Of a DNA stretch of 63,768 nucleotides, positions 18,501 through 41,004 are shown piece by piece. Source of the stretch: a virus; the IMG/VR virus record IMGVR_UViG_3300036398_002458, positions 1 through 63,768 of that record; one strand, 5' to 3'. The notes beneath the pieces are model-generated. The model saw only the letters and a list, made by a program, of their open reading frames with translations, ran no database searches and was not told the DNA's origin. Position 1 is the stretch's first letter; each line of letters begins with the position of its first letter. A program made the position numbers and the translations under genes.

Positions 18501-18661
18501 CGTACCGCAAATATCTCAACAGCCCGATCGGGGCCGAAGAGATGTCCAAGGACGAGCGGGAGCGCGAACTGGAAGAGATCCGCAAGTTGGAAGCCGAACT
18601 CACCGGGTGGCTGCGAGAAGCCAAGACGGAGATCCGCAAAGCGGGTCGGATGGCGGTCTAG
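12542..18661 (+). CDS. 2039-residue polyvalent-like internal protein with zincin motif
   Basis: The largest gene. Order: N-terminal region (MAYSIRLPDGTLVEGIPDEVT); an Ala/Gly-rich helical part (about 60-310); Pro-rich linkers; a globular region; a zinc-metallopeptidase motif H1001-E-L-G-H1005 followed by a possible third ligand Glu1086 in SEWFADN; then a C-terminal helical region (about 1500-1960) resembling the LPD38 domain of large polyvalent proteins. Such proteins are thought to be packaged and injected with DNA, where the protease and associated domains act on the host. Stop TAG shares CTAG with the convergent leftward gene. Confidence 0.65.
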   Translation: MAYSIRLPDGTLVEGIPDEVTPEQAKARILASRPELAPTPKAAPFSLRDVALSLGQGAVGGVKALTDVFGAGNVASETLERGQRALGEAMTPERQAELQRRAQMAKAAEEQGVGAEVSTALGGVAEAPLQSAAQAVGSFLPFMLAAPVGAAAKLLPATMKAINTVIGTAQGVGAVKGSIYDSVKERLVSEGMPEQLAEQQAQAAQAYTGKNLEQIGLGGALGAVAGRFGAESLLSKAGAQQAAPGMLRRAGTAALAEAPTEAAQGGQERMAANIALQREGFNVPTFQGVAGQAAQEAAMGALGGAAVGAVRGPEVQPPPAPPAPPAPPAPAPAPAAPAVDLTKSYGELWKQREELRAAEKTPEIEAAIGQLSQRIRELDTEGINAARQQKAQEQADAEKAARSAFTQPGQQMEMREFLPPGGAQLATEVETEPTLREQRAEYRQDRRELREQGQMRLPFRYTGEGEPTSTTPPPAPRIYMPDIEAVGVPFKTAKDWFNRNVVNRTKEDVAALVQQDPSLVKGQGSRAKILRALLGPDVPAFKEAPRGAPTSAPVSAKPQPGGDQRGMGVPSAPPVAGPPAAAAPAAPKRPVAPRLAPVAPPAPAGVAGEGQQPLALTPAPAPVAPVEDTRTAAEVQTAIDSLRNKQRGLLLKSGKVPMPNSKARSSYDALETQVQELIPVYDRKAEEERQRDAAEMQRRLDEQQKKTAEGKRKAHPAAAPTPAKPTPPISEEMREPIGTSTFGMEEGEVEIRRGPQAELFPSSKAETRKRAEAADERERAAAEEPAAEVPAVDERQMVFDLQPRAEPTVPAWADERAKEFTGGKAVYAEGDVALVRSTNRFGFITYIAVHKDGRAERVDVRSSTSPLLTAEERARFVEARNRAVDADAAEYAANPDGPFAGAATNVVGSDGISKKYTDYLAELTKSLGIGDVRFFVHNGADLDGETDRYGFHGPYLSGLNTTNESSSTNGSVVSFGPNRNDFIIYLKPEMSETKTLEVIAHELGHAIQQIAYDNAPTQVQFAIRKEYEAWLKENKKPGHTAIDLAHNLRTREQAQDIEASLRARGKAEMTADAMDNVDSYWRSFSEWFADNTARWATTADKPLTITEKFFSQVAQKLRDLLRIVTGRQYLPAKTVKDFLDSMGPGSSKMWFEDTTRTEQAPQKQFSLSYGAQQIIDAMGPIEPERMPWYKAMVQGITTQPGDPTLGTKFRVMMADSAAAVEQRLQAKFNGAVRDALGNLNPMGALRQAQDYVKLLPEYFQKGSIEKDPTTGLWKVVEKKDVPPPVEVFAALEKWSKKNGYSMEGGTRAASRILEAMRLKELLKSNQTKGTEFVIHMPEADIDALAKEYNADPDLQEISALMDKARIAMVDNMVAVGRLSKAEGDAWKSVVNYVPFDRISDEISSFDRIKKLSGKGVAQLGKLPELVGSLERPVGNVFTNYANTLGWMLRQTTNADATRTTIEVMESMGLAKPLGTTTQHKDNTVGAYVDGELRYWQVPSKYDVLAFKDLTLPKSGLMKFLGAFSNVLRTTVTALPPFALKQVADDVQRAIFTSGVRNPGPMIRMALTNFPKIALAEMRGIKHPIVRELGDLGLTGEYDFQQGRPAESLLKEAGYMKRGRFETLLHRLDGITRASDIAVRKAIYDQTKRETNDELLAQVRAREFINFRRRGASNFAASLTSTIPFFNAYIQGTDVLYRAATGQAAASGLERTAARRLFWSRAAMLTAFATLYALGKSDDEDYKDMDLRTRDGNWILGDGLKIGVPTELGAIFKVIPERMVEYYKRKGTPEEQEAMEAVRTAVAYIAEQYFGRAMPIPQAAKPLLEAWTNFSFLTMRPLEGIFQKGQLPSERRTATTSELAIAMAGFSRDMVGVQISPIMIDNVLRGYFGSTAAMVTMATDSLLNPTRVDRPLHKYALLSNYLYDPVGTRQLSEFYEEREKVGQINATLNELAKTDPVRAEAFAIENEDRLMLERSINATLNQLKDTRAYRKYLNSPIGAEEMSKDERERELEEIRKLEAELTGWLREAKTEIRKAGRMAV

Positions 18662-26003: not shown

Positions 26004-26088
26004 ACGACGCGCGTGAACTGGAGTTATTTGAAGCCCCAGTGTAGCAATCAGAGGCAGCGCAAGGAAGCCCCGCCGTCTAACGGTTAGA

Positions 26089-27996
26089 TCAGCAGTCGCC
26101 ATAGGTCGTTCCCACCCCAGACTCGCACGCCAGGGGCAGCGTCTGGGCCCAGTCCGGGCGCCAGGACATGCACTCCTCGACGTACCGCTGAGCCTCAGCC
26201 TTCTCCTCCACGGGGGCGATACAGGCCACGGCATCGTGAACTGTCAAGACCGCCTTGTAACGCTTGGCAATGCGCAGCATCTGCTCCCCGACCACGCACC
26301 GGGCGATAGCCTGGGTGAAGTTCTCCACAACGAGTCCGCCATAAACCTTGGTGGCGATGCCCCGGGACACGTAGACCGTCTGGGGTTTGCCGTCCCCGAA
26401 AACCGTGGTCAAGCCGGGATACTGGATCCACAGCCCGGAGGGCAGGGTAATTCCCCACTCGGCGCCGCTGAGCCCCTTGGGGATGCGCGCCGTGCGGCAC
26501 AGGCCCTGCACGTCGATCTCGTACTCCTGCTCACTCTGAAGATAGGACAGCGCCATCTGCGCTTTCTGCCACAACTCCGGGATTCGGTAGTACGTGGTGC
26601 GATAGGTGTCCACAATGTTCCGCGCCTGAAGTTCGGTGACATCAACCCCCGCCTGCATCTTCAAGAACGTCCGCAGTTTGACGTGCCCGACTCCGTAGCC
26701 TGCGCCCAGGATCACGACCTTGCCCACCTGCCGTTCGGACTTGGTGATCTGGTCTTCGTGCTTGCCGTAGATGCGGCTTGCCATGATTCTGTATACATCC
26801 CGCTTGTTCTCGAAGGCGGTGACCAGATCTTCCTGTCCGGCCAACCACGCCAGGGTCCGCGCTTCGATCTGTGAGGAGTCCGCGTCGATGATGACGTGTC
26901 CGGGCGGCGCTTGGATGGCCCGCTTTATCTTGCCTGCGTTCTCTCCGCGCGATGGCAGGTTCTGGAGGTTGATCTTGTCCTGGCCCGACCACCGGCCCGA
27001 GTGCGCCCCGTAGTAGCGCAGAGGCACCGGGAACTTGCCCCGGAACGACATGTCGATGAACCGCTCCGTGCGAGTCTCTTCAAGCGTAGTCTTGTTACCC
27101 AGGCGGGCGGCCACCAGGGCCTGCACCTGCTCGTTCGGATGATCTTGCAGGGCGATCATGCCCGGGTCGGTCTTGGCAAAAGCGTAGGTCGTGCGGCCCG
27201 TGGTCGGGCTTACCTTCAGCGGCGGGATCACGCCCAACAACTCAAGCGCGGCGGCGAACTTGTCGTTGGACATCAGGAGTTTCTTCAGCCCCTCGGTGCC
27301 CTCGGTGAAGATGGTCTGCACGAAGTCGGCGTTGCCCTCCTCGATCATCTTGTCGCGCAAGGTTGCCAAAAGGTTGGCTTTGCGGTCCTTGACTTCTTGC
27401 AAATGTGTGATAAGCAGATCGCGGTCCAACTCCAACACGGGCTCGATGAACATGCGCAGGGTCAGGTCGATCAGTTTGAGTTCGCGCGTCGGGAACCCCC
27501 GCTTGAGGTAGATGTGGAAGAGTTTGTGCGTGAGGTCTACGTCGTTGCGGCAGTAGGCGGCGTACCCGGCGATCGCGTAGGCGGAGAAGTCTTTGCGCCG
27601 CATGCCCATGGCATGCACCACCTCGTCGCCCTTGGCACCGATGGCTTCGCGCTCAGCCTGTGCGGCCAGACCGTGAGACTTCTCATGCGGGAACAGGGAG
27701 CGTGACATGCCCAGGGTGTCGGCCCACGCCTTCGGGTTGACTCCGTAGCGCCAGTTCAGGATGGCGCCATCGAACATCGTGTTTTGAGCCAAGACCATCT
27801 TGTCAGACCAATCAATCTCCCCCAACACCCGGGCCACCTCGGGTTGGTCCACCCACACCGTCGGTTCATTGTCGTGCTTGATGCCCACACCGATCACCTC
27901 GAACTCGGGGCGTCGGATGTACTCCTCCGTGGTCATCTTGGACAGCGAATATTCGCGGTCGTAGTAGGTCTCGAAGTCAATCGTTATTAGTTTCAT
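26089..27996 (-). CDS. Family A DNA polymerase with 3'-5' exonuclease
   Basis: 635 residues, T7-like size. Exonuclease motifs: D7-F-E9, NTMFD, and YCRNDVD. Polymerase motif A is DSSQIEARTLAWL. Motif B is R422-QVGK426-VVIL430-GAGY434-G. Motif C is H587-D588-A589. Two features are odd. The residue at the E. coli Phe762 position is Leu430. The motif C glutamate is replaced by alanine. Phage PolA variants with Leu at this position are known from environmental surveys. This should be the replicative polymerase; it works with the primase-helicase and SNF2 protein encoded downstream. Confidence 0.9.
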   Translation of the reverse strand: MKLITIDFETYYDREYSLSKMTTEEYIRRPEFEVIGVGIKHDNEPTVWVDQPEVARVLGEIDWSDKMVLAQNTMFDGAILNWRYGVNPKAWADTLGMSRSLFPHEKSHGLAAQAEREAIGAKGDEVVHAMGMRRKDFSAYAIAGYAAYCRNDVDLTHKLFHIYLKRGFPTRELKLIDLTLRMFIEPVLELDRDLLITHLQEVKDRKANLLATLRDKMIEEGNADFVQTIFTEGTEGLKKLLMSNDKFAAALELLGVIPPLKVSPTTGRTTYAFAKTDPGMIALQDHPNEQVQALVAARLGNKTTLEETRTERFIDMSFRGKFPVPLRYYGAHSGRWSGQDKINLQNLPSRGENAGKIKRAIQAPPGHVIIDADSSQIEARTLAWLAGQEDLVTAFENKRDVYRIMASRIYGKHEDQITKSERQVGKVVILGAGYGVGHVKLRTFLKMQAGVDVTELQARNIVDTYRTTYYRIPELWQKAQMALSYLQSEQEYEIDVQGLCRTARIPKGLSGAEWGITLPSGLWIQYPGLTTVFGDGKPQTVYVSRGIATKVYGGLVVENFTQAIARCVVGEQMLRIAKRYKAVLTVHDAVACIAPVEEKAEAQRYVEECMSWRPDWAQTLPLACESGVGTTYGDC

Positions 27997-31034: not shown

Positions 31035-31150
31035 ATCATTCCCCACAAGTAAGTCAGCAACATCATCAGCGTCACGAACGGGGCGAGGAACACCACGACC
31101 ATGACGGTGATCAGCCAGTACAGGACGATGAATTCACCAAGCCATCTCAT
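31031..31150 (-). CDS. 39-residue membrane protein
   Basis: Starts at 31150 (ATGA overlap with the regulator upstream) and ends in an ATGA overlap with the exported protein. After MRWLGEF it is almost wholly hydrophobic, with enough length for one long or two short spans. No family is recognised. The perfect coupling supports it as real. Confidence 0.6.
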
Positions 31151-31875
31151 GTTTGCGTCTCCTTCTTCTCTTTCTTGCGCTGCTCTTCTTCCCACGCAGC
31201 GCGTTCGTCCGGGCTCATCTTGGCCCACTCATGCGCTTGCCTGATGGCGTCGAAGTCCACGCCCTTTGAAATCCCTGCGCATTCGCGCAGTGTGTCCACG
31301 CGGGTAGGGTGCTTGAGTTTACGGATGGCCTTTGTCTCGATCTGACGGATGCGTTCCCGGCACACATCGAACTTGGCGCTCACCTCTTCCAACGTGAGTT
31401 CGCTCTGAGTGTCGATACCAAACCGCAGACGTAACACCTTGGCCTCTCGCGGCGTTAGGCTGTCGAGCATCTCGGCTACAACACGATGCCGATCTTCTTC
31501 CTCCAGGCCCGCATCGGGGGCGGGGGCCTCAAGCAACTCCCCGGTGTGCCGTGCAAGCATCTCCACCATCGCCCTGTGGCTCATGCCAAAGTGCGACTTG
31601 TTGGTGGGCAGCACAAACAGCAACTGCTCAGGCGTCCACAGGTCTTCGGGCAACACCCCCAGGAACTCGCAAAGGCGTTGAGCGGTGGGAATGATCTCCC
31701 CGCTCTTGCCCATCGGTGACGCCTTGAAGTTAATCAAATTACCGATGTGCGTCGGGGTCAGGTTTGCAGCCTTGCAGAACTGCGCCACATTTGCGTAGCC
31801 CGCCTTCTCGATGGCGTTGAGGATGAGGTTGTTCCTGACCTTGAGGTCTATGCGGTATTCGCCGTCGTCGCTCAT
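31147..31875 (-). CDS. HTH plus sigma-70 region 4 regulator
   Basis: 242 residues from the ATG at 31875. Residues about 14-75 form an XRE-like HTH ([20 protein letters not shown]). Residues 137-192 are a good sigma-70 region 4 ([15 protein letters not shown]...[27 protein letters not shown]). Region 2, needed for -10 recognition and core binding, is missing, so it cannot be a normal sigma factor. It may act as a region-4 decoy or activator that redirects host RNA polymerase. The C-terminus is a charged helix. It is coupled to tiny membrane genes on both sides. Confidence 0.75.
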
Positions 31876-31994
31876 GTCAACCACCCTGCCCAGTGAAGGA
31901 AGTACACCAGGGAGAAGAACAGAAAGCCCAGTGCCATCAGCATGGCGATGAGCCACCCCAACTCTTCCATGCCATCGTCTTCATAACGATTCAT
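31872..31994 (-). CDS. 40-residue membrane protein
   Basis: Starts at 31994 with an ATGA overlap. An acidic head ([12 protein letters not shown]) is followed by one long hydrophobic span ([20 protein letters not shown]). It ends in an ATGA overlap with the sigma-like gene. Function unknown. Confidence 0.6.
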
Positions 31995-32101: not shown

Positions 32102-32309
32102 TTGGTTTCTCCGCTAAACCGCGCCACTCGTCATTGCGGCAAATCCACAGCCCCACAACCTTGTCTTTGGGCTGCCACATCCACCGCTTGCCGGTCCAGT
32201 ACGCACGCACCCCCACGATACCTACGCCATGGTAGTCATACCACCCCACGTGCATCGGGCGGAACTCTTTGGCGCGGAACCACTGCGTAAGTTTGGGCTT
32301 GGTCTTCAT
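32091..32309 (-). CDS. Small tryptophan-rich protein, unknown function
   Basis: 72 residues with seven tryptophans (WFRAKEFRPMHVGWYDYHG, YWTGKRWMWQP). The spacing of W, P, G-Y and Y-W residues recalls DUF551-type small phage proteins, a weak resemblance. It overlaps the upstream HTH gene by 4 bp. Function unknown. Confidence 0.55.
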   Translation of the reverse strand: MKTKPKLTQWFRAKEFRPMHVGWYDYHGVGIVGVRAYWTGKRWMWQPKDKVVGLWICRNDEWRGLAEKPNGR

Positions 32310-32842
32310 GCGAACATCCTCTTGAGTGCGGCGAACAGGTCGCGGGCTTGGGCGATGGTCAGCGTGGAGATCAGCGCGTCTACGTCGTAGGCGGGAGTCA
32401 CGGGCGCCGGGGCGGCGGGCACTTCTTTACGAGTGAGCACGACCTTGGGCTTGTCGGCCTTCGGGTTGCGCCCCGTGGGCGTGGGAGTGTTGCGGGCCTT
32501 GCGCAGTTTGCTCAGTTTGACCGGCGAGTATTCCTGAAGGTTTGTGAAGTACGTGCCGTTGGGCGCGCGAGTGATGATGCCTGTGCGGGACATCTGCGAC
32601 ACCAGTGCAGATACGGATGAGTCCTTGTGTCCCTTGGCTACCAGAGCATCGCGGATCTGGCGGGTGGTGCGGTGCGGGTTGTCGCGCACGTAGTTGAACG
32701 TCTCCCGCGTCACGTCAGTGGTGCGAGTAAAGAACGGGGGTAAGTTGGGTTTATGTTGTGTTTGCACGGTTTGCTCCGGTTGGTTCCATTCGTTAAGGAC
32801 TGATTGCAGTGCTGATTTCAGATCAGGCATGGTGGGCTCCAT
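32306..32842 (-). CDS. Winged-helix DNA-binding protein
   Basis: 178 residues. A central domain (ETFNYVRDNPHRTTRQIRDALVAKGHKDSSVSALVSQMSRTGII, about 47-92) is a good winged HTH; it is followed by a basic linker (KLSKLRKARNTPTPTGRNPKADKPK) and a C-terminal helical segment. The start codon lies inside a copy of the 15-bp palindrome (32841-32855), so the protein could be regulated through, or bind, that element. An internal ATG at 32830 is the alternative start. Confidence 0.65.
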   Translation of the reverse strand: MEPTMPDLKSALQSVLNEWNQPEQTVQTQHKPNLPPFFTRTTDVTRETFNYVRDNPHRTTRQIRDALVAKGHKDSSVSALVSQMSRTGIITRAPNGTYFTNLQEYSPVKLSKLRKARNTPTPTGRNPKADKPKVVLTRKEVPAAPAPVTPAYDVDALISTLTIAQARDLFAALKRMFA

Positions 32843-32855
32843 CTAAGGCTTAGAA
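32841..32855. promoter_or_regulatory. Palindromic element, copy 1 (one mismatch)
   Basis: ATCTAAGGCTTAGAA. It includes the start codon of the wHTH gene (ATG at 32842) and the stop of the 32850-33044 gene. Confidence 0.6.
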
Positions 32856-33044
32856 GAGTTCAAGTTGACGGTCGTCCGGGTGCGGACGTGGGGCTTGCGG
32901 ATCGCGCTTGGCTTGCGCGTGTTGAAACTCGTCGATGTCCCGAAGGCGCATCTCCAGTCGCTCTCCCACGGCACGTGCCAGGGCGTCGCCCTTCAGGTAC
33001 ACCATGTTCAGCAACTCCTCATCACTTAGGTTCTCGTATCTCAT
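32850..33044 (-). CDS. Small acidic protein, unknown function
   Basis: 64 residues (MRYENLSDEELLNMVYLKGDA...DDRQLELF). It is helical and charged. Its stop lies within the 32841 palindrome; its start overlaps the upstream stop by 4 bp. The C-terminal QLELF resembles a beta-clamp-binding peptide (QxxLF-like), which is suggestive only. Confidence 0.55.
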   Translation of the reverse strand: MRYENLSDEELLNMVYLKGDALARAVGERLEMRLRDIDEFQHAQAKRDPQAPRPHPDDRQLELF

Positions 33045-33442
33045 TTGCGCGGGTCCTCTAGGTCAATGAATGTGGTTAGGTGATGGTTCTTGTCGGTACG
33101 GAACCACAGGATCTCGTCCGGTGGCGGCTCGTTGGTCTTGCGTAGATGGCCGGATATCTTCGCCACCACGAGGATTGGCACAAGCCATACCGGCACGTTG
33201 TCTGTGTTTCCACGGTCAGTCCATTCGGTGCCGTCGTACCAACGCTTGATGAGATAGACATCCCCACGTCGCTCGTACCGGAACTCGTATTCGTCGTTTG
33301 TCATGTGGATTGATTTGTGTTGATGTCGGGCTCGTCGCAGTCCGTCGGCCCAGACAATCTCGTCTATCGATCGGTACCAGTCCTCATGGTCAGCAACCGT
33401 CTGCCTGATCTGCTCAAGCCAATACTGTTTGATCAGACCCAT
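33041..33442 (-). CDS. Hypothetical protein
   Basis: 133 residues from the ATG at 33442, preceded by GGGAGTGGACG. It contains YWLEQIRQTVADHEDWYRSIDEI, a beta-looking middle (YEFRYERRGDVYLIKRWYDG) and a short hydrophobic segment (VPVWLVPILVVAKI). It overlaps the DUF3150 gene by 29 bp. Not recognised. Confidence 0.5.
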   Translation of the reverse strand: MGLIKQYWLEQIRQTVADHEDWYRSIDEIVWADGLRRARHQHKSIHMTNDEYEFRYERRGDVYLIKRWYDGTEWTDRGNTDNVPVWLVPILVVAKISGHLRKTNEPPPDEILWFRTDKNHHLTTFIDLEDPRK

Positions 33443-34331
33443 CGTCCACTCCCCAGTCGAATGCCGCCAGGATCGCGTCCACCTTCTGCTTGGTGGCCGC
33501 ACGGGTACCGTCGGACTCTCGCAAGTCCTTTGGTGTTACGCCAGACAGAACTTCCTCCAGACGACGCCGCGCCTTCTCCAGTGCAGGGTCGTTGGTGATG
33601 TTCATGTGCGTCAACAACTCGCACAACTCCACGGCGCCAGTGACCATGGTGTCGTGGAACTTGCGCTTCTTGCCGTCCTCTTCGATCACGAGCCGGTCGC
33701 TCAGGCGGGACAGCGCATCGTGCAGTCGAGTCCATGAGTCCTGCGCCGCCGCTTCCAACTGCTGCTCCATGCGCTTGTCGTACTGACGCATGAGATCGCG
33801 TTGCACTTCGCTCTCGATGTCGAGCCGGAAGTCGCCCGCCGTGGGCAGGGGAGAGAACGCAATGTCGAACCGGAACTTGCGCGCCACCTGCTCACGGGTG
33901 GGGTACTCATCACGATCAAAGAGCGTGCCCAACTGGAACGCGGCGGCGGCCACGAGCGTGTCGTACTTGTCGAGGAACGCCTCGACCAGACGGTTGAACT
34001 CAGCCTCATGCACATTCATCTCCGCCTTGTAGGACTGCAACAGGGCAGTGGGCAACAAGCGCGCGCCGTAGTCGTTCCAGGGCTTCGTGAGCCGGTAGTG
34101 GTCGGCACGGGCACGGGCTTGGTACTTGGTGATGGCGTCCAGTTCGGCACACTCTGCGAACAGAGACTTGTAGACAGACGCCGCCTTGGACGACTTCGCG
34201 CCCTTGGATTGCGTCACCTCGGCTTGCGTAGCCTTGTCCTGCTTGCGCCCCGAGTACAGGGAGATTTGCAGGTCCACGAGCATGGCCGCACGTGCCACGC
34301 CTGCTACGGGGTTGGTTTCGATGTAGTTCAT
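33414..34331 (-). CDS. DUF3150 protein
   Basis: 305 residues, helical and charged. It has the DUF3150-like start (two residue blocks around LVDLQISLYSGRKQDKAT) and LAxYKAEMNVHEAEFNRLVEAFLDKY-type helices in the middle, read in pieces by eye. DUF3150 proteins are often encoded beside MoxR ATPases and VWA proteins. That is the case here: the MoxR and VWA genes lie 2-4 kb upstream in the same operon. It is probably a substrate or partner of that ATPase module. Confidence 0.65.
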   Translation of the reverse strand: MNYIETNPVAGVARAAMLVDLQISLYSGRKQDKATQAEVTQSKGAKSSKAASVYKSLFAECAELDAITKYQARARADHYRLTKPWNDYGARLLPTALLQSYKAEMNVHEAEFNRLVEAFLDKYDTLVAAAAFQLGTLFDRDEYPTREQVARKFRFDIAFSPLPTAGDFRLDIESEVQRDLMRQYDKRMEQQLEAAAQDSWTRLHDALSRLSDRLVIEEDGKKRKFHDTMVTGAVELCELLTHMNITNDPALEKARRRLEEVLSGVTPKDLRESDGTRAATKQKVDAILAAFDWGVDDGSDQTVLA

Positions 34332-34591
34332 TCTGATTTCTCCTGTTGCTTTTGAACGAATTTAATTGCTTCGACTTGCTCGTCGCTTACGACATTGATG
34401 GTCAGTTGCTCTAGCGGGTTGAATGGTTGGATGATTGGCAGGTAGTTGTTGCCGCTTCCAGTAGTCCCCTTGCCGTTGCCAATCCATTTGGTTTGCATGC
34501 TCTCGGCTTTGCACAGCAGCGTTGACAACGCTTCCAACTGCTCGTACGTCAGCAGCACCGTGTGGTCGCTGATCTCGACTTTGAATCTCAT
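34328..34591 (-). CDS. Hypothetical protein
   Basis: 87 residues. It starts MRFKVEISDHTVLLTYEQLEAL and has a glycine-rich middle (NGKGTTGSGNNYLP) and ends VEAIKFVQKQQEKSE. It is coupled by 4-bp overlaps to DUF3150 downstream and the 204-residue gene upstream. Not recognised. Confidence 0.55.
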   Translation of the reverse strand: MRFKVEISDHTVLLTYEQLEALSTLLCKAESMQTKWIGNGKGTTGSGNNYLPIIQPFNPLEQLTINVVSDEQVEAIKFVQKQQEKSE

Positions 34592-35202
34592 ACGGTTTCT
34601 CCTTCGATTTCAAACTTCACTTCGTTGATCTCGCACGACTCTATGAAATACTCCTCGGACGAGATGTGGTCCCACTCCGACCGCAACGCGTCGAGCAGAA
34701 CGTCGGCTTTTTCTTGTGCGAACTCCCGCACCACTTCCTCGATGCGGGACTCTCGCCACTGGTCGTCTAGCAGTTCTTCCCAAGTCTCTTCGTCCAACTC
34801 GGAGAAGATTCCGCGCGGCGCCATGAAGCGGGTGTTTTCCTGAATGTCTACCTCCAGGGTCTTGTTCCGCCATCCAGTCAGATACACCCGTGCCCACGAG
34901 CGATCGTGCTCCACAGCGATGTACAAAGCCGGGTAGCGTTCGTCCAGCCCCTTGCGCTTCATGAAGGGAGCGAGGTGAAACGAGCCCTGCCAAGCGGCAT
35001 CAGCGTGGCCGTAGTCGATGCCCTCGAACTGGATGTCCGCCACCTGCACTCCCAACTCGTCCATCTGCTGTTTGAAGTCGTCCTCCACCGTGTCCCACCA
35101 CTCGGGGTGAAGGCAGTTGTCGAGGAAGCCCTGATGCTCTTTCTCAAACCGCTTTGGGTCTAGCGTCTTGAGTTCGTGGATGTCTACTTCGCGTGTAGTC
35201 AT
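34588..35202 (-). CDS. Acidic protein of the MoxR/VWA island, unknown function
   Basis: 204 residues, strongly acidic, with many Trp (HPEWWDTVEDDF, AWQGSFHLAPF, WDHISSEEYF). It carries IQFEGIDYGHADAAWQGSF, seen as a conserved block in related phage proteins. No enzyme motif. Just upstream lies a perfect palindrome (35214-35228) and GGAG. Confidence 0.55.
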   Translation of the reverse strand: MTTREVDIHELKTLDPKRFEKEHQGFLDNCLHPEWWDTVEDDFKQQMDELGVQVADIQFEGIDYGHADAAWQGSFHLAPFMKRKGLDERYPALYIAVEHDRSWARVYLTGWRNKTLEVDIQENTRFMAPRGIFSELDEETWEELLDDQWRESRIEEVVREFAQEKADVLLDALRSEWDHISSEEYFIESCEINEVKFEIEGETV

Positions 35203-35213
35203 TTCATTTCTCC

Positions 35214-35228
35214 ATCTAAGGCTTAGAT
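35214..35228. promoter_or_regulatory. Palindromic element, copy 2 (perfect)
   Basis: ATCTAAGGCTTAGAT. It includes the stop of the VWA gene and lies directly before GGAGAAATG of the 34588-35202 gene. Confidence 0.75.
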
Positions 35229-36407
35229 GTCCAGGTGAATCGTGGTGCCGAACGGCGCCACAAGGTTAGAAGTCACAGCCCACAGGGTTGGGATGGTGGT
35301 GCGTCCCCAGTCCCCGACATACCCGTCGGTGAACTGCACGATGGCCTGGGGAGCCAAACTTTTTTCTTTCAAGTAATCAAACAACACCGACCCGTCGGTG
35401 CCGCCGCCACCCTTGATCTTCAGGTCCTGCACGGCGAACTGACCATCCTCGAAAGTTTGATGCCCGGCCACCTCGGTGTCCCAATAGATCACGTGGACCT
35501 TGCCCGGCTTGACCTGTTCGATGATGGTGCGCAACTCCGAAACGAACCGCGTCATTTCATCGCCGCCGAAAACCGAGCCGGAGGTATCGAACCCGATCAC
35601 CAACTCGGTGATAGTGATGCCCTGCATGGACGGCATGTAGATGTCGTCGGCCAAGAACCTACGGTTGGGCTTGCGCCACGTGGACTCGTCGCGTCCCTGG
35701 CACATCTCTTGGATGAACTCACGCAACGCCTTGCGCCAGTCAACCTTGGGTGCAAGCAAGTCGCCGAAGATACCGTCGGCCATGCCCGCGCCCTTGCCTG
35801 CCAACTTCTGACGCAACATCTCGCCCTGGCGCACGGCACGTGCGATCTCCTGGGCTTGTGCTTCTGCGGCTTTCTTGGCCTCATCGCCACCGTCCCTGGC
35901 GTTCTCCCAGTCGTGCGTGTCGAGCCCGCCATCGCCGTCCCCATCGCCGCTCTCGCCCCCATCAGGCGGCGGGTTCTTCTTCAGGTCGTCGAAGATCTGA
36001 CGCACCGACCAGCCCCGGTACTTCTCGTCGGGCTTGATGCCGATCTTGGGCATGCGGATGAACCCCTCGCCCGCATCCATGTCCACGAGTGCGAGGTTGA
36101 CAAAGTAGTCGGCGGCTACGTTGGCAAGGTGCGGGTCCTCGTCGTGCAGGTCCTGCCACGTGTGCAGGTGGCGATACGCCTTGTGCGTGGCCTCGTGCAA
36201 CACCACGAAGCGCAACTCCGGGTCGGTCGGCATGTACTGCTTCATGAACTCGGGGTTGTACTTCACGTCCCAACCATTCGTGGCGGCGGTGGGCACCTCG
36301 TCGGTGACCTCGACCTTGCCGCATGCCAGGACCCCGGCATACACGCATGCCTTCTTGTGTTGCATGATGGCGATGTGCGCCTTGCGGATACGATCAATCG
36401 GTTCCAT
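35223..36407 (-). CDS. VWA-domain metallopeptidase-like protein (DUF2201 type)
   Basis: 394 residues. The N-terminal part carries a zincin motif H71-E-A-T-H75. A glycine/aspartate-rich linker follows (about 147-165). The C-terminal half is a von Willebrand A domain with MIDAS residues D274-T-S276-G-S278, a GGGGTDGS loop and FTDGYVGDW. This two-domain layout is the usual partner of MoxR-type AAA+ ATPases, comparable to the CobT/CobS pair. It may be a chaperone- or protease-like complex. Its stop sits inside one palindrome and another lies just upstream of its ribosome site. Confidence 0.8.
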   Translation of the reverse strand: MEPIDRIRKAHIAIMQHKKACVYAGVLACGKVEVTDEVPTAATNGWDVKYNPEFMKQYMPTDPELRFVVLHEATHKAYRHLHTWQDLHDEDPHLANVAADYFVNLALVDMDAGEGFIRMPKIGIKPDEKYRGWSVRQIFDDLKKNPPPDGGESGDGDGDGGLDTHDWENARDGGDEAKKAAEAQAQEIARAVRQGEMLRQKLAGKGAGMADGIFGDLLAPKVDWRKALREFIQEMCQGRDESTWRKPNRRFLADDIYMPSMQGITITELVIGFDTSGSVFGGDEMTRFVSELRTIIEQVKPGKVHVIYWDTEVAGHQTFEDGQFAVQDLKIKGGGGTDGSVLFDYLKEKSLAPQAIVQFTDGYVGDWGRTTIPTLWAVTSNLVAPFGTTIHLDI

Positions 36408-36423
36408 GGTTTCTCCTGTTGTG

Positions 36424-36438
36424 ATCTAAGGCTTAGAT
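36424..36438. promoter_or_regulatory. Palindromic element, copy 3 (perfect)
   Basis: Between the small 36446-36613 gene and the VWA gene. On the minus strand it is followed by CACAACAGGAGAAACC and then the ATG at 36407. Nearly the same leader follows copy 5. Confidence 0.75.
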
Positions 36439-36445
36439 GTTGTGG

Positions 36446-36613
36446 CTACTTGATTCCCCTGCCTATGAAGGCAGTCTGGATACGGTGCGCATCACGGGAT
36501 TCGACGTGGTTCTTCATGGGTGGGGTGTATGCCTTGCTGATGCGAGCAGGGCTCCAGTCCTTGTGCAAGCGCACACGGCGCGTTCCGTTGCTGAGGTATT
36601 CGATGACTAGCAT
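36446..36613 (-). CDS. Small basic protein between MoxR and VWA genes
   Basis: 55 residues from the ATG at 36613, preceded by AAGGGGG. MLVIEYLSNGTRRVRLHKDW, then SPARISKAYTPPMKNHVESR. It is basic and probably beta-rich. It lies 10 bp after the MoxR stop and before a palindrome at 36424. Not recognised. Confidence 0.5.
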   Translation of the reverse strand: MLVIEYLSNGTRRVRLHKDWSPARISKAYTPPMKNHVESRDAHRIQTAFIGRGIK

Positions 36614-36623
36614 GGCGGCCCCC

Positions 36624-37685
36624 TTAGAAATACTTGCCCAACTTAGCGGCGGCTGCGGTGAAGCGGCGGTTCTTGCACGCCATCGCCACCTTGGACTTGT
36701 TGCCCGCAAGTGAGGATACGAACAGCGAGTAGGCTTCGAACGACGTGATGCGTTCGGCGTACACCATGACTGCATCGAGATCGTCCTCGGTCACACGGTT
36801 GGCAAGCATGAAGGCCAGGATAAACATGGCACCCACGGCGTCCTCTTTCGGAACCTTGGTCTTGTGCGGATCCTTGACGATGTTCTCGTACAGGGGCAGG
36901 GAGTCAGCGAGGTTGACCAAAGCCACCATGAGTTGCGCCGCCGACTCGCCGATCGTGCCTGCTAAAGCCGGCAAAAATGCGTCCCCCAAAACAGACCTTT
37001 GTTTCACGATGTTCGATCCACGCTCCATGGAACGCGGTGAGCAGAAGGTCCGCGTGTTGCCAGTCAGGGGGTTGAAGATGTACGGGTTCTTCTCGTTGCG
37101 ACCCAGGTCGGTGTAGCACTGGAACACCTCGGGGTTTTGCTTGGCGAACGCCATCATCTCGGGGGCGATGTCGTTGTCCGCCGCCCAGTGCAACCACTCG
37201 TCAGCGGTGGGGTTGGCCACCACGAGTTCAGTCATGCGGTTGTAGGCATGCGCCGGGATGTTGTCGCCCACCCCGTCGGTGTCGAGGTTTGTGGTTGCGA
37301 TGACGATCGACCCGGTAGTCAGGCCACGGTCAGCGATGCGCTTCTCGTTGACGAGCGGCAACAGCATGTTCAGCACAGGGCGGGACGCCTTGCCCAACTC
37401 GTCAAGCATGATGAGCAGGGGGCGGTTGCTGCCGTTGGCAAGCCCGAAGCGGGCGTTCGGTGCGTAGTTGGTAACCATGGCTTCGCGGTCGATGACGGGC
37501 ATGCCCAGGTCACCGAGGTCAAGGTTAGCCACGTCGATATAGCAGGGGATGTAGTCCGGCAGTTCCTTGGCGAGCATGGTCAGGATCGCTGACTTGCCCA
37601 CACCGGGTTGGCCCCGCAGGATCACGGTGTTGGTGGTGCCGACGGCACGGATCACGGTAGCGGCTTGGTTCAGATTGACTTTCAT
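36624..37685 (-). CDS. MoxR/CobS-like AAA+ ATPase
   Basis: 353 residues. Walker A GQPGVGKS (25-32), Walker B LLIMLDE (90-96), sensor-1 N133 in ATTNLDTDGVG, and a following helical lid. Sequence order fits the MoxR/CobS branch, which remodels or activates VWA-domain partners. The partner is encoded next in the operon (35223-36407), with DUF3150 after it. CobS-like ATPases occur in some phages, but a role in cobalamin synthesis is unlikely without other pathway genes. Confidence 0.85.
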   Translation of the reverse strand: MKVNLNQAATVIRAVGTTNTVILRGQPGVGKSAILTMLAKELPDYIPCYIDVANLDLGDLGMPVIDREAMVTNYAPNARFGLANGSNRPLLIMLDELGKASRPVLNMLLPLVNEKRIADRGLTTGSIVIATTNLDTDGVGDNIPAHAYNRMTELVVANPTADEWLHWAADNDIAPEMMAFAKQNPEVFQCYTDLGRNEKNPYIFNPLTGNTRTFCSPRSMERGSNIVKQRSVLGDAFLPALAGTIGESAAQLMVALVNLADSLPLYENIVKDPHKTKVPKEDAVGAMFILAFMLANRVTEDDLDAVMVYAERITSFEAYSLFVSSLAGNKSKVAMACKNRRFTAAAAKLGKYF

Positions 37686-37705
37686 GATGGGTTCCTATTG
37701 CGTTG

Positions 37706-37720
37706 ATCTAAGGCTTAGAT
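37706..37720. promoter_or_regulatory. Palindromic element, copy 4 (perfect)
   Basis: In the 74-bp gap between the 37760-38533 gene and the MoxR gene, about 20 bp upstream of the MoxR start. Confidence 0.75.
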
Positions 37721-37759
37721 GTTGATGAGTGATTTTGCTTTGGTTGGCTTACGGATGGT

Positions 37760-38533
37760 TTACTTGGTCGGGGTGGGTGCGGTTACGGTCTCATACAGAT
37801 CCTCCTTGGCGGCTTTCATGATGGCGGTCCACGCTTGGCCTGCCGGGAGTTTGGTGTACTCGTAGGAGCGGCTTGCCCAGTTGAACCCGTGGGTGAACGC
37901 ATACCTGCGGATGATGCCCGGCCAGTTGTGGCTCCGGTCAGGGTTGGTGAGGATGTCGCGCAGTTGCGGGGCGATGCGCCCACCTGCGTTTTGCCACCCT
38001 ACGTCGTCGGACGTAGCGGCGGCATGCAGGAGTTTGAACACGTCCTTGAACCCGGACGCCTTGACTCCATCGTGCAGTTCCTTGGTTTCGCTCTTGTCGA
38101 TGCGCTTGGCTTCGAAGGGCTTGGGTTGAGAAAGTAACTCCCCGGACGATGAGAATGAAATTCCATCGTAGTACCGATACTCCTTGCCGTTGACGCTCAC
38201 GATCGGTTGGTTCTTGCTGAACTTGACGCCGTTGTAGACCGACACGCGAAGCCCGGCGTCGTGGAAGAAAGCACCAAACGCATCGTTCATGCAGATGCGG
38301 GTGGTCGGGGAGCGGAACCAGTTGTCGCAGTTGAGGACGAAGGAATCGTCGGGCTGCACGGTGATGACGTCGGTGTTGTGGAAGCGCACGGCCATGTTGC
38401 CCACGGCAGTCTCGCGCACCCTCTCGTGGTTGCGCCCACGGCGAGAGCCGTCGAGCGGCGCCGTGCCTTTGTGCTTGCCGCGCTTGTACATGTGGCGGGC
38501 TACGTGAAGTTGCATTGCGGTGTAGACAGTCAT
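37760..38533 (-). CDS. Conserved hypothetical protein
   Basis: 257 residues. The N-terminus is basic (HMYKRGKHKGTAPLDGSRRGRNHERVRET). It is followed by a folded core with FHNTDVITVQPDDSF, NCDNWFRSPTTRICMNDAFG and a C-terminal helical part ending APTPTK. It is the first large gene of the MoxR/VWA island and is preceded by GGAG and a palindrome (38552-38566). No motif is recognised. Confidence 0.6.
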   Translation of the reverse strand: MTVYTAMQLHVARHMYKRGKHKGTAPLDGSRRGRNHERVRETAVGNMAVRFHNTDVITVQPDDSFVLNCDNWFRSPTTRICMNDAFGAFFHDAGLRVSVYNGVKFSKNQPIVSVNGKEYRYYDGISFSSSGELLSQPKPFEAKRIDKSETKELHDGVKASGFKDVFKLLHAAATSDDVGWQNAGGRIAPQLRDILTNPDRSHNWPGIIRRYAFTHGFNWASRSYEYTKLPAGQAWTAIMKAAKEDLYETVTAPTPTK

Positions 38534-38551
38534 TTGGTTTCTCCGGTTGTG

Positions 38552-38566
38552 ATCTAAGGCTTAGAT
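38552..38566. promoter_or_regulatory. Palindromic element, copy 5 (perfect)
   Basis: Contains the stop of the zinc-ribbon gene. On the minus strand it is followed by CACAACCGGAGAAACC and then the ATG at 38533, the same leader as copy 3. Confidence 0.75.
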
Positions 38567-38767
38567 GGTTCGCTTGGGGTTGAGTTGGGACAGCAGTGCG
38601 GTGTCGGTGAAGAGCATGTAGTTGGACTTGTTGAGGGGCGCCACGCACCAGTGGCGGCGTTCCTCCTTGGCTTGTTCGTCGCCGCACTCCAGGCAGATGG
38701 GCTTGATGGCCGCCCGTTCGGGCGGGTCGATCTCATGGCCGCAGATGCGGCACTTGGGTATGGTCAT
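38561..38767 (-). CDS. Small zinc-ribbon protein
   Basis: 68 residues. CRICGHEID at 6-14 and CLECGDEQ at about 25-32 give a four-cysteine zinc ribbon like that of DksA/TraR-type proteins, followed by RRHWCVAPLNKSNYMLF. It could bind RNA polymerase or nucleic acid. The stop lies in a palindrome (38552-38566). Starts 1 bp after the upstream stop. Confidence 0.6.
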   Translation of the reverse strand: MTIPKCRICGHEIDPPERAAIKPICLECGDEQAKEERRHWCVAPLNKSNYMLFTDTALLSQLNPKRTI

Positions 38768-38768
38768 T

Positions 38769-38981
38769 TCAGTCCTCCAGTTGGGTTATCACGGCGTCGA
38801 TCCGGGCCATCTGATCGGCCAACACCTTGGCCTTGAACGCGTACCAACCTTCGGGCAGGTCGGCGTCGCCGTAGCGGTCCTGCATGTACCCGTCGAGCGG
38901 TGTGCGTACGTTGCGCCATTCGCGCAGGATCGTGAGCAGGGTGTACGCCGTGTCCGGCGTCAGGTTCAGACTGGTTTTCAT
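38769..38981 (-). CDS. Small protein, first gene of the leftward operon
   Basis: 70 residues (MKTSLNLTPDTAYTLLTILREW...LADQMARIDAVITQLED), helical. GGAG precedes the ATG at 38981. It is the first open frame downstream of the control hub. A palindrome and a candidate promoter lie within 62 bp upstream. Function unknown. Confidence 0.55.
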   Translation of the reverse strand: MKTSLNLTPDTAYTLLTILREWRNVRTPLDGYMQDRYGDADLPEGWYAFKAKVLADQMARIDAVITQLED

Positions 38982-39007
38982 GTGGTTTCTCCAGGTTGGG
39001 CCCCGCC

Positions 39008-39022
39008 ATCTAAGGCTTAGAT
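39008..39022. promoter_or_regulatory. Palindromic element, copy 6 (perfect, extended stem)
   Basis: CATCTAAGGCTTAGATG flanked by CCCCG and CGGGG, giving a longer imperfect hairpin. It lies 27 bp upstream of the first leftward gene and could overlap the -10 of a promoter. Confidence 0.75.
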
Positions 39023-39043
39023 GACGGGGGTTTGGGTTGTTAA
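39016..39043 (-). promoter_or_regulatory. Candidate leftward promoter overlapping palindrome copy 6
   Basis: On the minus strand: -35 TTAACA (39043-39038), 16-bp spacer, and -10-like TCTAAG (39021-39016) inside the palindrome. The upstream block ATCTAAC/AAACACTT/ACAACCCA is shared almost exactly with the promoter at 40949-40977. The -10 is weak. If real, anything bound to the palindrome would block it. Confidence 0.4.
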
Positions 39044-39059
39044 GTGTTTGGTTAGATGT

Positions 39060-39392
39060 TTGGGTGTTGTTGAGTGCGATAGGACGTGTCAGCGTGGCAT
39101 CTCCCGCATCACTGCGGCTCCACGCTCAAGGGAACGTACCGGTTTCCCGGCATAGGTTCCCATCCATTTAGGCACTATGCGTCGGCTTTGCATCACGCTA
39201 TCCCCGTTCGGAGCCGGGCAGGGCTCACTACTCTACGGGTACACCACGGATGCACCGGACTGACTACCGGACGCCTTCTCGCGCAGGGAGGTTACTTGGA
39301 TGTACCGGGCGTCTCACGACGTGGACCGGGCTAGCCTATCTTTCACCTATGGCGCTTCTGCCATGTGGCAGCGGCGGTTTGTTTGCCCCGGC
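39060..39392 (-). ncRNA. Candidate structured RNA between two palindromes
   Basis: About 330 bp with no convincing gene. Read on the minus strand it forms several clean hairpins: CCGCA-GTGA-TGCGG (39104-39117) nested in AGCGTGG/CCACGCT (39091-39126); CCGG-GAAA-CCGG (39139-39150); GCATAG/CTATGC (39150-39180); and CGTC-GTGA-GACG (39310-39321). Three have GNRA tetraloops only on this strand, which fixes the orientation. It does not match tRNA, tmRNA, RNase P or the group I core as I know them. An open frame at 39086-39334 on the plus strand has no ribosome site and looks accidental. Confidence 0.45.
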
Positions 39393-39407
39393 ATCTAAGG
39401 CTTAGAT
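39393..39407. promoter_or_regulatory. Palindromic element, copy 7 (perfect, extended stem)
   Basis: CATCTAAGGCTTAGATG flanked by CCCG and CGGG, again extending the stem. It forms the upstream boundary of the candidate structured RNA; copy 6 forms the downstream boundary. Confidence 0.75.
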
Positions 39408-39412
39408 GACGG

Positions 39413-39577
39413 GACGGGTCAGCGGATTGTTAAGGAGCGCGGGTTGGCATGGGGTAGGGGAAATGGCAACCGCATCGGAGATCGCAGGGCGAAGTCCGAC
39501 TGAACCCTTATTATGCCTGAAAGCGGGGCGTTTGTCAAGTCTCCAGAAAATGTTTTGGAGAGTGAGATTGGAGGGGG
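39413..39577. other. Intergenic, no feature seen
   Basis: 165 bp between palindrome copy 7 and the iteron region. It contains TCCAAAACATTTTCTGGA-type short inverted sequence near 39540-39560 and a second TTAACA on the minus strand near 39430. No gene is supported. Confidence 0.4.
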
Positions 39578-40022
39578 TTGTAACGGATGTAACGAAATTG
39601 GCGAGGTTGTAACGAAATTCGCGTAACAACACTAACCCTTAGGGGGACAATGAATGGCGTGGTAGTGGGGGCTTACTTCAGGGGCGAAAATGGGGGGTGC
39701 AACGGTGTAACGCGGTTTTAGAGAGAGAAAGCGAAAAAACAAGAATTTTCGCTCAAAAAACAAGTCACCAAGGGTTTACACCTACAAAATGAGCGAAATT
39801 TGGGAATCATATAAAAATCCGCGTTACAGCGTTACATCCTATCTATCTATCTATTATGTAGTGTAGTAACAACACAAACACCTGCTTTTTCCTACGGGTT
39901 GCTACCTACTTTTGCTACATTTTGCAGCAACTCGGGGTGTTTTCGTTCGGGTTAACCCGAGGGTTAGTGTTGTAACGCCGATTTCGTTACATCGAGGCAA
40001 ATTTCGTTACATCCGTTACAAG
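39578..40022. other. Candidate replication origin: iterons in nested inverted repeats
   Basis: Left arm 39578-39644 and right arm 39957-40021 form an imperfect inverted repeat of about 65 bp; their first 22 bases match exactly when one is reversed. A second nested pair is at 39698-39717 and 39815-39835. GTAACG/CGTTAC occurs about ten times over the whole dyad. The centre is AT-rich, with (TATC)4 at 39840-39855 and a CGGGTTAACCCG palindrome at 39948-39959. No gene is present. An iteron origin bound by a phage initiator is the likeliest reading; a multi-operator control region is the alternative. Confidence 0.5.
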
Positions 40023-40025
40023 GTC

Positions 40026-40040
40026 ATCTAAGGCTTAGAT
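40026..40040. promoter_or_regulatory. Palindromic element, copy 8 (perfect)
   Basis: CATCTAAGGCTTAGATG, 4 bp from the right arm of the iteron inverted repeat and next to the 40062-40090 terminator. Confidence 0.75.
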
Positions 40041-40061
40041 GCGAAAGTGCTTGACGCCGCG

Positions 40062-40090
40062 CAAAAAAGCGCGCACACTACGTGTGCGCG
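40062..40090 (-). terminator. Intrinsic terminator, leftward
   Basis: Stem CGCGCACAC/GTGTGCGCG (9 bp, 3-base loop; 40070-40090) followed on the minus strand by C and TTTTTT. A strong rho-independent terminator. It would end any transcript coming from 40.1-40.3 kb before the iteron region. Confidence 0.75.
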
Positions 40091-40093
40091 GTC

Positions 40094-40108
40094 ATCTAAG
40101 GCTTAGAT
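40094..40108. promoter_or_regulatory. Palindromic element, copy 9 (perfect, extended stem)
   Basis: CATCTAAGGCTTAGATG with GCGG before it and CCGC after it, extending the stem through one bulged base. It lies directly upstream (leftward reading) of the 40062-40090 terminator. Confidence 0.75.
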
Positions 40109-40117
40109 GCCGCCCCT

Positions 40118-40268
40118 GCGTGATAGTGTCTAATCTTAGATGCGGCGGGGTCGGCCCGGCGATCTAAGATTAGATGCGGCGCTTCGCGCGCCTGCTCCCC
40201 CACGCGCCCTCTCGCTCACGCGCCTTCGGACTACTATCACGCAAACGTAGCGCAGGCTACGTTTGCGT
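40118..40268. repeat. Nested inverted repeats in the control hub
   Basis: TGCGTGATAGT (40118-40128) pairs with ACTATCACGCA (40232-40242). Overlapping its right end, ACGCAAACGTAGC (40239-40251) pairs perfectly with GCTACGTTTGCGT (40256-40268) around a 4-base loop. The outer loop encloses the two variant palindromes. No U-tract follows, so these are not simple terminators. Confidence 0.65.
40128..40175. promoter_or_regulatory. Two variant palindromes in inverted orientation
   Basis: GTCTAATCTTAGAT at 40128-40141 and ATCTAAGATTAGAT at 40162-40175. Each lacks one central base, and they are reverse complements of each other at 13 of 14 positions. Both are followed by GCGGCG. Confidence 0.6.
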
Positions 40269-40275
40269 AGGCAAC

Positions 40276-40298
40276 AAAAAAGCCCGCCGAGGCGGGCT
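40276..40298 (-). terminator. Intrinsic terminator of the 40329-40886 gene
   Basis: On the minus strand: AGCCCGC-CTCG-GCGGGCT followed by TTTTTT. It lies 30 bp downstream of the stop codon at 40329. A strong rho-independent terminator. Confidence 0.85.
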
Positions 40299-40328
40299 GT
40301 GGGGGCAAGGGGCCGAAGCCCCTGCTGA

Positions 40329-40886
40329 TCACTCTGCGGTTTCCTTGAACCCGTCCAGGGATTCGATCGCCACGTCCAAGACTTGCGCGGCGAACTCTGT
40401 CAGGCCGAGCATGCGGGCCTGGGCGATCGCCTTGGACAACGTTTTGTCCAGATCCTCGCGTGACGTGGACGTCACGGCGCCTGCCTTGCTCGCGCCACCC
40501 TTGCCCGCCTTGCCCCAGGGCAGGCCAAATTCCGGGCGATTCTTGATATCGGCGAACCATTCAACGCCGTGGTGCAAGGCGCGGGCGGCGCCCTGCGCAT
40601 ACTCTGTAACCGTGCTACGGTGCAACAGGCCGTCCGCAACAGCCCGGACAAACGCATCGGATTCCCGGATCGCCTTTTGCACGGCCTTGCAAGACTCTTG
40701 ATCCTTGCCGATGCCCGGGGCAACGCGCACCGCGTCAATGTATTGATTCATTGTGCGGGACAGTTGATCGGCAAAATTGGACGCGGCCTTGTCAAATTTC
40801 CCGTAGGATTTGACGATCGTCAGGGCAAATGGGTTGAAGGCCGGGGCGGTGACAGCGGGCTTCGTGGGGGTCTTGATAACTGACAT
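40329..40886 (-). CDS. Monocistronic hub protein, unknown function
   Basis: 185 residues from the ATG at 40886, chosen because AAAGGAAATCACC precedes it; a start 81 bp upstream overlaps the promoter. The N-terminus is Pro/Thr-rich (VIKTPTKPAVTAPAFNPFAL). The rest is helical, with SNFADQLSRTMNQYIDAVRV and TSREDLDKTLSKAIAQARML. It has its own promoter and terminator and sits alone beside the candidate origin, so it is probably expressed first. An early host-takeover or initiator protein is plausible; no family is recognised. Confidence 0.65.
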   Translation of the reverse strand: MSVIKTPTKPAVTAPAFNPFALTIVKSYGKFDKAASNFADQLSRTMNQYIDAVRVAPGIGKDQESCKAVQKAIRESDAFVRAVADGLLHRSTVTEYAQGAARALHHGVEWFADIKNRPEFGLPWGKAGKGGASKAGAVTSTSREDLDKTLSKAIAQARMLGLTEFAAQVLDVAIESLDGFKETAE

Positions 40887-40948
40887 GGTGATTTCCTTTG
40901 ATTGACGTTGATTGAATTGCCGATCGCGTGTCGCAATCGACAAGGCCG

Positions 40949-40977
40949 ATTGTGCATGGGTTCGCATGGGTTGTCAA
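40949..40977 (-). promoter_or_regulatory. Sigma-70-like promoter of the 40329-40886 gene
   Basis: On the minus strand: -35 TTGACA (40977-40972), 17-bp spacer, -10 CACAAT (40954-40949). The consensus -35 and ideal spacing make it convincing. A variant palindrome lies just upstream, and the flanking sequence is shared with 39016-39043. Confidence 0.7.
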
Positions 40978-40989
40978 GTGTTTAGTTAG

Positions 40990-41004
40990 ATCTAAGGGTT
41001 AGAT
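40990..41004. promoter_or_regulatory. Variant palindrome (one mismatch)
   Basis: ATCTAAGGGTTAGAT, 12 bp upstream of the -35 of the leftward promoter at 40949-40977. Confidence 0.6.

Follow-up and report, generated by a model that had tools for sequence, protein, structure and literature searches.

Why should a phage in which lysogenic silencing is not an obvious purpose carry the same short palindrome at one gene boundary after another? The question is raised by IMG/VR virus record IMGVR_UViG_3300036398_002458, a 63.8-kb sequence analysed over its full length (positions 1 to 63,768; hereafter the window), in which a 15-mer, ATCTAAGGCTTAGAT (sense strand, ATCTAA-GCC-TTAGAT), recurs in eight perfect copies. 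We consider it probable that a dimer of the protein encoded by the first early gene (the hub protein; 40329–40886, minus strand) reads this palindrome in its two 6-bp half-sites, and that the bound protein acts as a roadblock that lowers early transcription. The observations behind this reading were all made by computation: the repeat itself, its conservation at junctions, half-sites that are specific to lineages, positions near −55 and +100 at predicted promoters, the lack of RNA-type tolerance for base changes, and the co-variation of a hub segment with the site.

When up to three mismatches were allowed, the 15-mer matched the window 22 times on both strands, compared with 0.41 matches expected and a maximum of 3 over 100 shuffles. 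The form TCTAA-N2/3-TTAGA occurred at 13 sites, all between 26075 and 41004 in the early, leftward half of the genome and none in the late genes, where the author of a preliminary description of this DNA had not noticed the motif either. The copies are as follows.

40990..41004, minus strand: motif copy, sense ATCTAACCCTTAGAT, at promoter P1, centre about −54 from the predicted start
40162..40175, no strand assigned: motif copy with a 2-bp centre, ATCTAAGATTAGAT, by sequence match
40128..40141, no strand assigned: motif copy with a 2-bp centre, GTCTAATCTTAGAT, by sequence match
40094..40108, minus strand: motif copy adjoining a second terminator-like hairpin (40070–40090)
40026..40040, minus strand: motif copy in a non-coding interval
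39393..39407, minus strand: motif copy in the P2 leader, centre about +104
39008..39022, minus strand: motif copy ahead of the first operon gene (ATG 38982)
38552..38566, minus strand: motif copy at the junction ahead of gene 37760–38533, containing the upstream stop
37706..37720, minus strand: motif copy ahead of the gene for the MoxR ATPase, 36624–37685
36424..36438, minus strand: motif copy upstream of the VWA/DUF2201 gene 35223–36407
35214..35228, minus strand: motif copy between the VWA gene, whose stop lies within the motif, and gene 34588–35202
32841..32855, minus strand: motif copy with one end base altered, ahead of the winged helix-turn-helix (HTH) gene 32306–32830
26075..26089, minus strand: diverged copy where the DNA polymerase and exonuclease genes meet, sense ATCTAACCGTTAGAC

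The eight perfect copies (35214, 36424, 37706, 38552, 39008, 39393, 40026 and 40094), the variants at 32841 and 40990 and the relative at 26075 all lie where the preliminary description had placed them, and its two remaining variants, at 40128 and 40162, exist as 14-bp forms with a 2-bp centre (TCTAA-TC-TTAGA and TCTAA-GA-TTAGA, respectively). It had further proposed that most copies sit at a junction and cover the upstream stop. The junction placement was borne out, and extends to the 26075 copy, which lies at the DNA polymerase stop and adjoins the exonuclease gene; a stop is covered only at 32841, 35214 and 38552, the copies at 36424 and 37706 lying in the gap between genes and those at 39393, 40026, 40094, 40128, 40162 and 40990 in non-coding control regions. 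Likewise, the pairing of outer flanking bases that it described is real at 39008, 39393 and 40094 and is not general: across 696 sites, nothing outside the 6-bp half-sites was comparably conserved. Its suggestion of one site per gene was too strong, because many junctions have no site and the positions of two sites are constant with respect to promoters.

We gathered 80 related contigs by a scan with the MoxR ATPase, and assembled 15 near-complete related phage genomes from pieces, giving with the window a comparison set of 16. An open motif search found that nearly every related contig has its own repeated short palindrome, with 4–19 copies in each of about 70 contigs. The general form is a half-site pair, NNNTAA-(2–4 bp)-TTANNN, of which the window 15-mer is one spelling. 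Half-sites in 70 contigs with at least four copies were ATCTAA/GTCTAA, TTCTAA, TTTTAA, TTATAA, TCTTAA, AACTAA and ATGTAA, in 11 combinations of arm and spacing (2, 3 or 4 bp). A census that searched arms ending in TAA showed this triplet to be constant beside the centre, and the open search returned the same arms. Spelling was specific to the lineage, and the copies of one genome agreed with one another. Sites that combine a TTCTAA half with a TTATAA half occur in the G015/L056 lineage and look like intermediates. The centre is strand-biased in the window genome, where its base orientation is identical in all eight exact copies, and in some relatives; in others the bias is reversed, so that both centre orientations occur among the relatives.

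Placement was conserved together with form. Among 699 exact sites, 41% preceded a ribosome site and start codon by at most 45 bp in the sense direction (13.6% in the control, 5% in antisense), and at 58% a reading frame from upstream terminated within the site or immediately ahead of it (18% in the control). In 60 of 75 relatives an exact motif preceded the MoxR start by no more than 120 bp; the corresponding counts were 49/73 for the VWA gene and 49/67 for a 257-amino acid gene, and the motif usually lay 10–50 bp ahead of the start codon. Two tests named in the preliminary description, for similar density in coding regions and for missing conservation at the same junctions, were run and did not refute it. 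The gene caller was crude, and coding flags on motif copies were unreliable where it picked a long antisense open reading frame (ORF). Exact copies were observed inside coding sequence in the MoxR gene (LMLDE motif) of relatives G001, G011 and G013 and at the 3′ end of the VWA gene in G010–G014; these use homologous codons, with leucine as CTA/TTA, and each is in its own lineage's spelling.

Repeats at gene boundaries are seen as recombination linkers in other phages (see also PMC4351075), and the palindrome could be a neutral repeat of this kind, kept at junctions by recombination, or a selfish palindrome. We regard this as highly improbable: the half-site changes together within a genome, the same junctions are retained at 60–70% protein identity and the positions relative to promoters are fixed.

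A second alternative, raised in the preliminary description, is an RNA hairpin that controls processing, stability or translation at each ribosome site. The sense placement 10–20 nt ahead of start codons, the shared centre orientation of the exact window copies and the pairing flanks at three of them are all what such a hairpin would predict. Folding gave a different picture. When sense-strand hairpins were folded in isolation, 61–75% of TTTAA/TATAA-type sites formed no stable structure, leaving most of these A-U stems unfolded. Of 40 junction copies with a single mismatch, 39 break a pair and one retains a G-U pair, no compensatory stem changes were found within a genome, and a lenient Rfam search of the region returned no known RNA family near the sites. 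Copies upstream of a promoter's −35 element, as at P1, are not transcribed from that promoter. Because the stems are unstable, G-U pairs are not tolerated and the P1 site lies outside the transcript, the evidence favours a palindrome that is read as DNA, and we strongly disfavour the hairpin, which we rate as very unlikely. The operator that the preliminary description had offered as its other option was supported in kind, by a symmetric DNA site repeated through the early region at the same junctions with a half-site that changes in concert in each genome.

Two copies have fixed positions with respect to predicted promoters on the minus strand, where the control region comprises the following parts.

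40949..40977, minus strand: P1, TTGACA-17-CACAAT, predicted to drive the candidate regulator gene as a sigma70 promoter, a layout shared by most relatives
40329..40886, minus strand: gene of the candidate recogniser (hub protein), 185 amino acids, ATG 40886 after an AAAGGA ribosome site
40281..40298, minus strand: intrinsic terminator after the hub gene, predicted from sequence
39510..39538, minus strand: P2, TTGACA-17-CATAAT, predicted main early promoter, 11/12 matches, start near 39503
39023..39392, minus strand: conserved leader RNA with a motif copy on either side, identified by alignment; a separate feature, possibly connected

P1 is the predicted promoter of the first leftward gene, and across genomes its site is centred between −44 and −63, mostly near −55. 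P2, a near-consensus predicted promoter, lies 1.4–3 kb beyond P1; most genomes have a site downstream of it with its centre at +90 to +120, and a divergent group has one at +30 to +60. Among 70 strong sense promoter matches, a site fell at +90 to +120 in 32 and at +30 to +60 in 14, compared with 2 and 0, respectively, in control windows. An intrinsic terminator follows the hub gene in 28 of 46 relatives, setting it apart as a separate unit. As a side observation, the AT-rich non-coding stretch at 39480–40020 contains repeated TGTAACG/CGTTACA words and could be an origin of replication.

The same sites and the same hub protein could work without a roadblock, with the protein activating P1, coating or organizing the early region in the manner of a nucleoid or partition protein, or tethering RNA polymerase for antitermination. 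P1 sites near −55 occupy the position of a class I activator, and most junctions that carry sites have no promoter, both of which this account would accommodate. Against it, an effect on elongation gives the best account both of the fixed +100 position after P2 and of sites that fall between a stop codon and a ribosome site, and we consider an arrangement without a roadblock unlikely.

As to what reads the site, the preliminary description had proposed three HTH proteins, of genes 21788, 31147 and 32306, each of which proved either excluded or unlikely; the hub gene was not named there. The 81-amino acid HTH protein of gene 21788 is identical in L070 and L071, which use TTCTAA, and in L063, which uses TTATAA, and therefore cannot set the spelling. 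The winged HTH protein of gene 32306 is absent from 7 of 15 motif-bearing relatives, ruling it out as a universal reader, and the sigma-like protein of 31147, which matched fewer than three relatives, is an unlikely one. The latter gene (31147–31956, minus strand) encodes a protein with a sigma-70 region 4 domain that is not conserved in the 15 related genomes.

Comparison of near-identical genomes with different spellings pointed instead to the hub gene, whose product is, from sequence comparison, most likely the recogniser. The family is present in 16/16 genomes and 46 related loci and evolves fast; loci lacking it appear to be fragments that end short of the control region. The protein had no convincing Pfam or PHROG match, no PDB sequence match and no match in annotated or isolated phages. 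AlphaFold2 gave a confident, all-helical model (mean predicted local distance difference test score 90) in which a long helix is followed by three short ones, the last being helix 90–106, and then by a linker and two C-terminal helices, and no solved fold resembling this model was found; the predicted recognition segment is residues 90–106, with TEYAQ at 94–98. In close pairs of genomes, a central segment of about 30 residues spanning this helix predicted a shared half-site with an area under the curve (AUC) of 0.82, a value equalled in 0/300 within-clade label shuffles, compared with 0.71 for MoxR, 0.68 for the hub C-domain and 0.46–0.73 for non-hub families, making it the best predictor among all proteins tested. 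In distant pairs the values were 0.76 for the central segment, 0.48 for MoxR and 0.52 for the hub C-domain. An AUC of 0.89, over 56 pairs, belonged to an out-of-frame ORF inside the VWA gene, which is not a gene and was discounted.

The hub N-domain sorted with the first base of the half-site: type A accompanied A/G-first half-sites in 12/12 cases and type B accompanied T-first half-sites in 25/26. Hub domains swap, as in L045 and L056, whose C-domains are 90% identical and N-domains 28% identical and whose half-sites are ATCTAA and TTCTAA, respectively. Within type A, residue 95 is E in 10/10 [AG]TCTAA genomes (TEY) and N or S in 3/3 AACTAA genomes, of which at least two are not closely related. 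Taken column by column, the association of the hub protein with the half-site is only suggestive.

These data also bear on whether the sites are operators for another phage or host protein, with the hub protein co-varying only through its linkage to a site-rich region. The hub gene is surrounded by sites, so that the two could be moved together by local recombination, and MoxR carries some signal of its own (AUC 0.71). Yet the signal is strongest in the hub central segment, distant pairs show none of it in the hub C-domain, other early genes close to the hub gene have lower scores, and the protein of gene 21788, the only core DNA-binding protein recognized by family libraries, is excluded. A different reader thus seems improbable.

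If the hub protein is the reader, a dimer would bind two 6-bp half-sites (ATCTAA in the window) 2–4 bp apart. Its gene leads the early strand and would be expressed from predicted P1; through the site close to the −35 element on its upstream side, the protein would regulate itself, and the other early genes would start from the stronger P2. Having accumulated, protein bound about 100 bp into the leader and at successive junctions would block or slow the host RNA polymerase, turning down the early genes in a graded and polar manner, in a network that would resemble stoperators without an integrase. Direct binding, dimerisation, a roadblock in preference to other effects, and the timing are what we infer in this scheme.

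Several observations weigh against it. A P1 site upstream of −35 fits an activator, or contact with the C-terminal domain of the RNA polymerase alpha subunit, equally well as a repressor. Spacer length differs between genomes, which is unusual for a rigid dimer, and TTCTAA and TTATAA halves coexist in genomes of the L056/G015 type, so recognition is not strictly one-to-one. Some exact copies in relatives lie within coding sequence. The label 'HTH' is read from the helices only, since no solved structure is related to the predicted fold. MoxR identity also predicts the half-site somewhat, indicating that shared ancestry was reduced and not fully removed, which leaves the evidence for this reader good yet indirect; MoxR columns reach a similar association for half-site base 2, and the permutation comprised 300 shuffles only.

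A broader proposal, which we advance tentatively, is that this new DNA-binding protein family endows each virulent lineage with a palindromic address of its own, located about +100 downstream of the main promoter and then at one junction after the next, by which early elongation is metered without lysogeny. Address and reader would co-evolve through changes in the recognition helix and N-domain swaps, and the leader RNA may be part of the same switch. This leader, the 370 nt that separate the +104 site from the copy ahead of the first gene, is conserved among relatives, and its consensus fold over 16 sequences has 23 pairs, 18 of them with changes on both sides; the lenient Rfam search of the region gave it no match. 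Folded by itself, the leader of the window did not outperform shuffles (z −0.99), so the case for structure rests on the alignment, from which 39023–39392 is possibly a new structured phage RNA.

The phages form a freshwater family and are apparently lytic. No tyrosine or serine integrase was found in the 16 genomes, in a search that did not extend to partition genes, and the sole bacterial-genome match that would speak for a prophage state was one 4.4-kb contig of a metagenome-assembled genome; lysogenic silencing is therefore not an obvious purpose of the sites. The window's structural genes resemble those of Pelagibacter phage HTVC023P and phage DSL-LC04, and its replication module that of Rhizobium phage RHph_TM3_14A. 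No tRNAs were found. The region 12542–18661 encodes a 2,039-amino acid protein with the 'large polyvalent protein' domain LPD38, which is likely to be co-injected with the DNA.

Palindrome networks of the Corndog type, in phages with no known lysogenic cycle, had no assigned reader or role. The roughly 70 contigs offer natural variation in both the site and its candidate reader, including near-identical genomes that are spelled differently, and make the proposal directly testable. If it is correct, control of elongation at junctions would let virulent phages shut down their early genes, a family of DNA-binding proteins would be newly added, together with many sites matched to it by nature, and the code could decide which co-infecting phages interfere with one another.

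Among known systems, SPBRE/MrpR of Bacillus phage SPbeta illustrates that such repeats can stay orphaned for decades before a reader is found (PMC10516654). It too pairs a 15-bp repeated site with one phage regulator (here a candidate). SPBRE sites lie in promoter regions, whereas most sites here are at junctions, and MrpR has a tyrosine-recombinase fold and maintains lysogeny, whereas the window genome has no phage-integrase-family match. Repeated palindromes, many at junctions, also occur in two phages that have MoxR/VWA and other genes in common with the window. Planktothrix phage Pag-Yong1 (OL906435.1, L110) carries 22 copies of GGTTCAGNCTGAACC, many at gene junctions, and we found no report of this repeat; Rhizobium phage RHph_TM3_14A (MN988472.1, L111) carries about a dozen copies of GTTACCT-N4-AGGTAAC. 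Their half-sites are unrelated to those described here, and homology between their first-gene proteins and the hub protein was not detected. A tie between the network and the MoxR/VWA pair was rejected, as four N4-like phages with the pair have no such repeat; the largest window proteins gave no RNA polymerase match, which, with the lack of a repeat in these four phages, speaks against hairpin promoters of the N4 type, read by a giant virion RNA polymerase.

By form, the nearest repeat is the 17-bp palindrome of Cluster O (Corndog), which has more than 30 copies and an unknown function in phages without an integrase (PMC4351075). Both have perfect arms around a variable centre (3 bp there, 2–4 bp here) and many copies (4–19 here) concentrated in one early strand of a phage that is not obviously temperate. 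The Cluster O arm is TGTTCGG, unlike the NNNTAA half-sites, and about a third of the Corndog copies lie within coding sequence (PMC4351075). The functionally nearest system is the stoperators of Cluster A mycobacteriophages (L5, Bxb1 and TipsytheTRex), asymmetric 13-bp sites bound by a known monomeric repressor in the service of lysogeny (PMC6550527, PMC9283540). There, as here, a genome carries many sites, most of them in short intergenic gaps and a few beside an early promoter; the spelling of the sites diverges in step with the regulator (a candidate in our case), and a block to elongation is proposed. The sites described here differ in being two-fold symmetric with variable spacing and in occurring among 16 genomes with no detected integrase, and the Cluster A repressor appears unrelated to the hub protein, homology with the L5 and TipsytheTRex repressors finding support in neither PDB sequences nor fold. 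Belonging to no named network, the palindromes are best regarded as a new variant of the distributed operator networks of phages.

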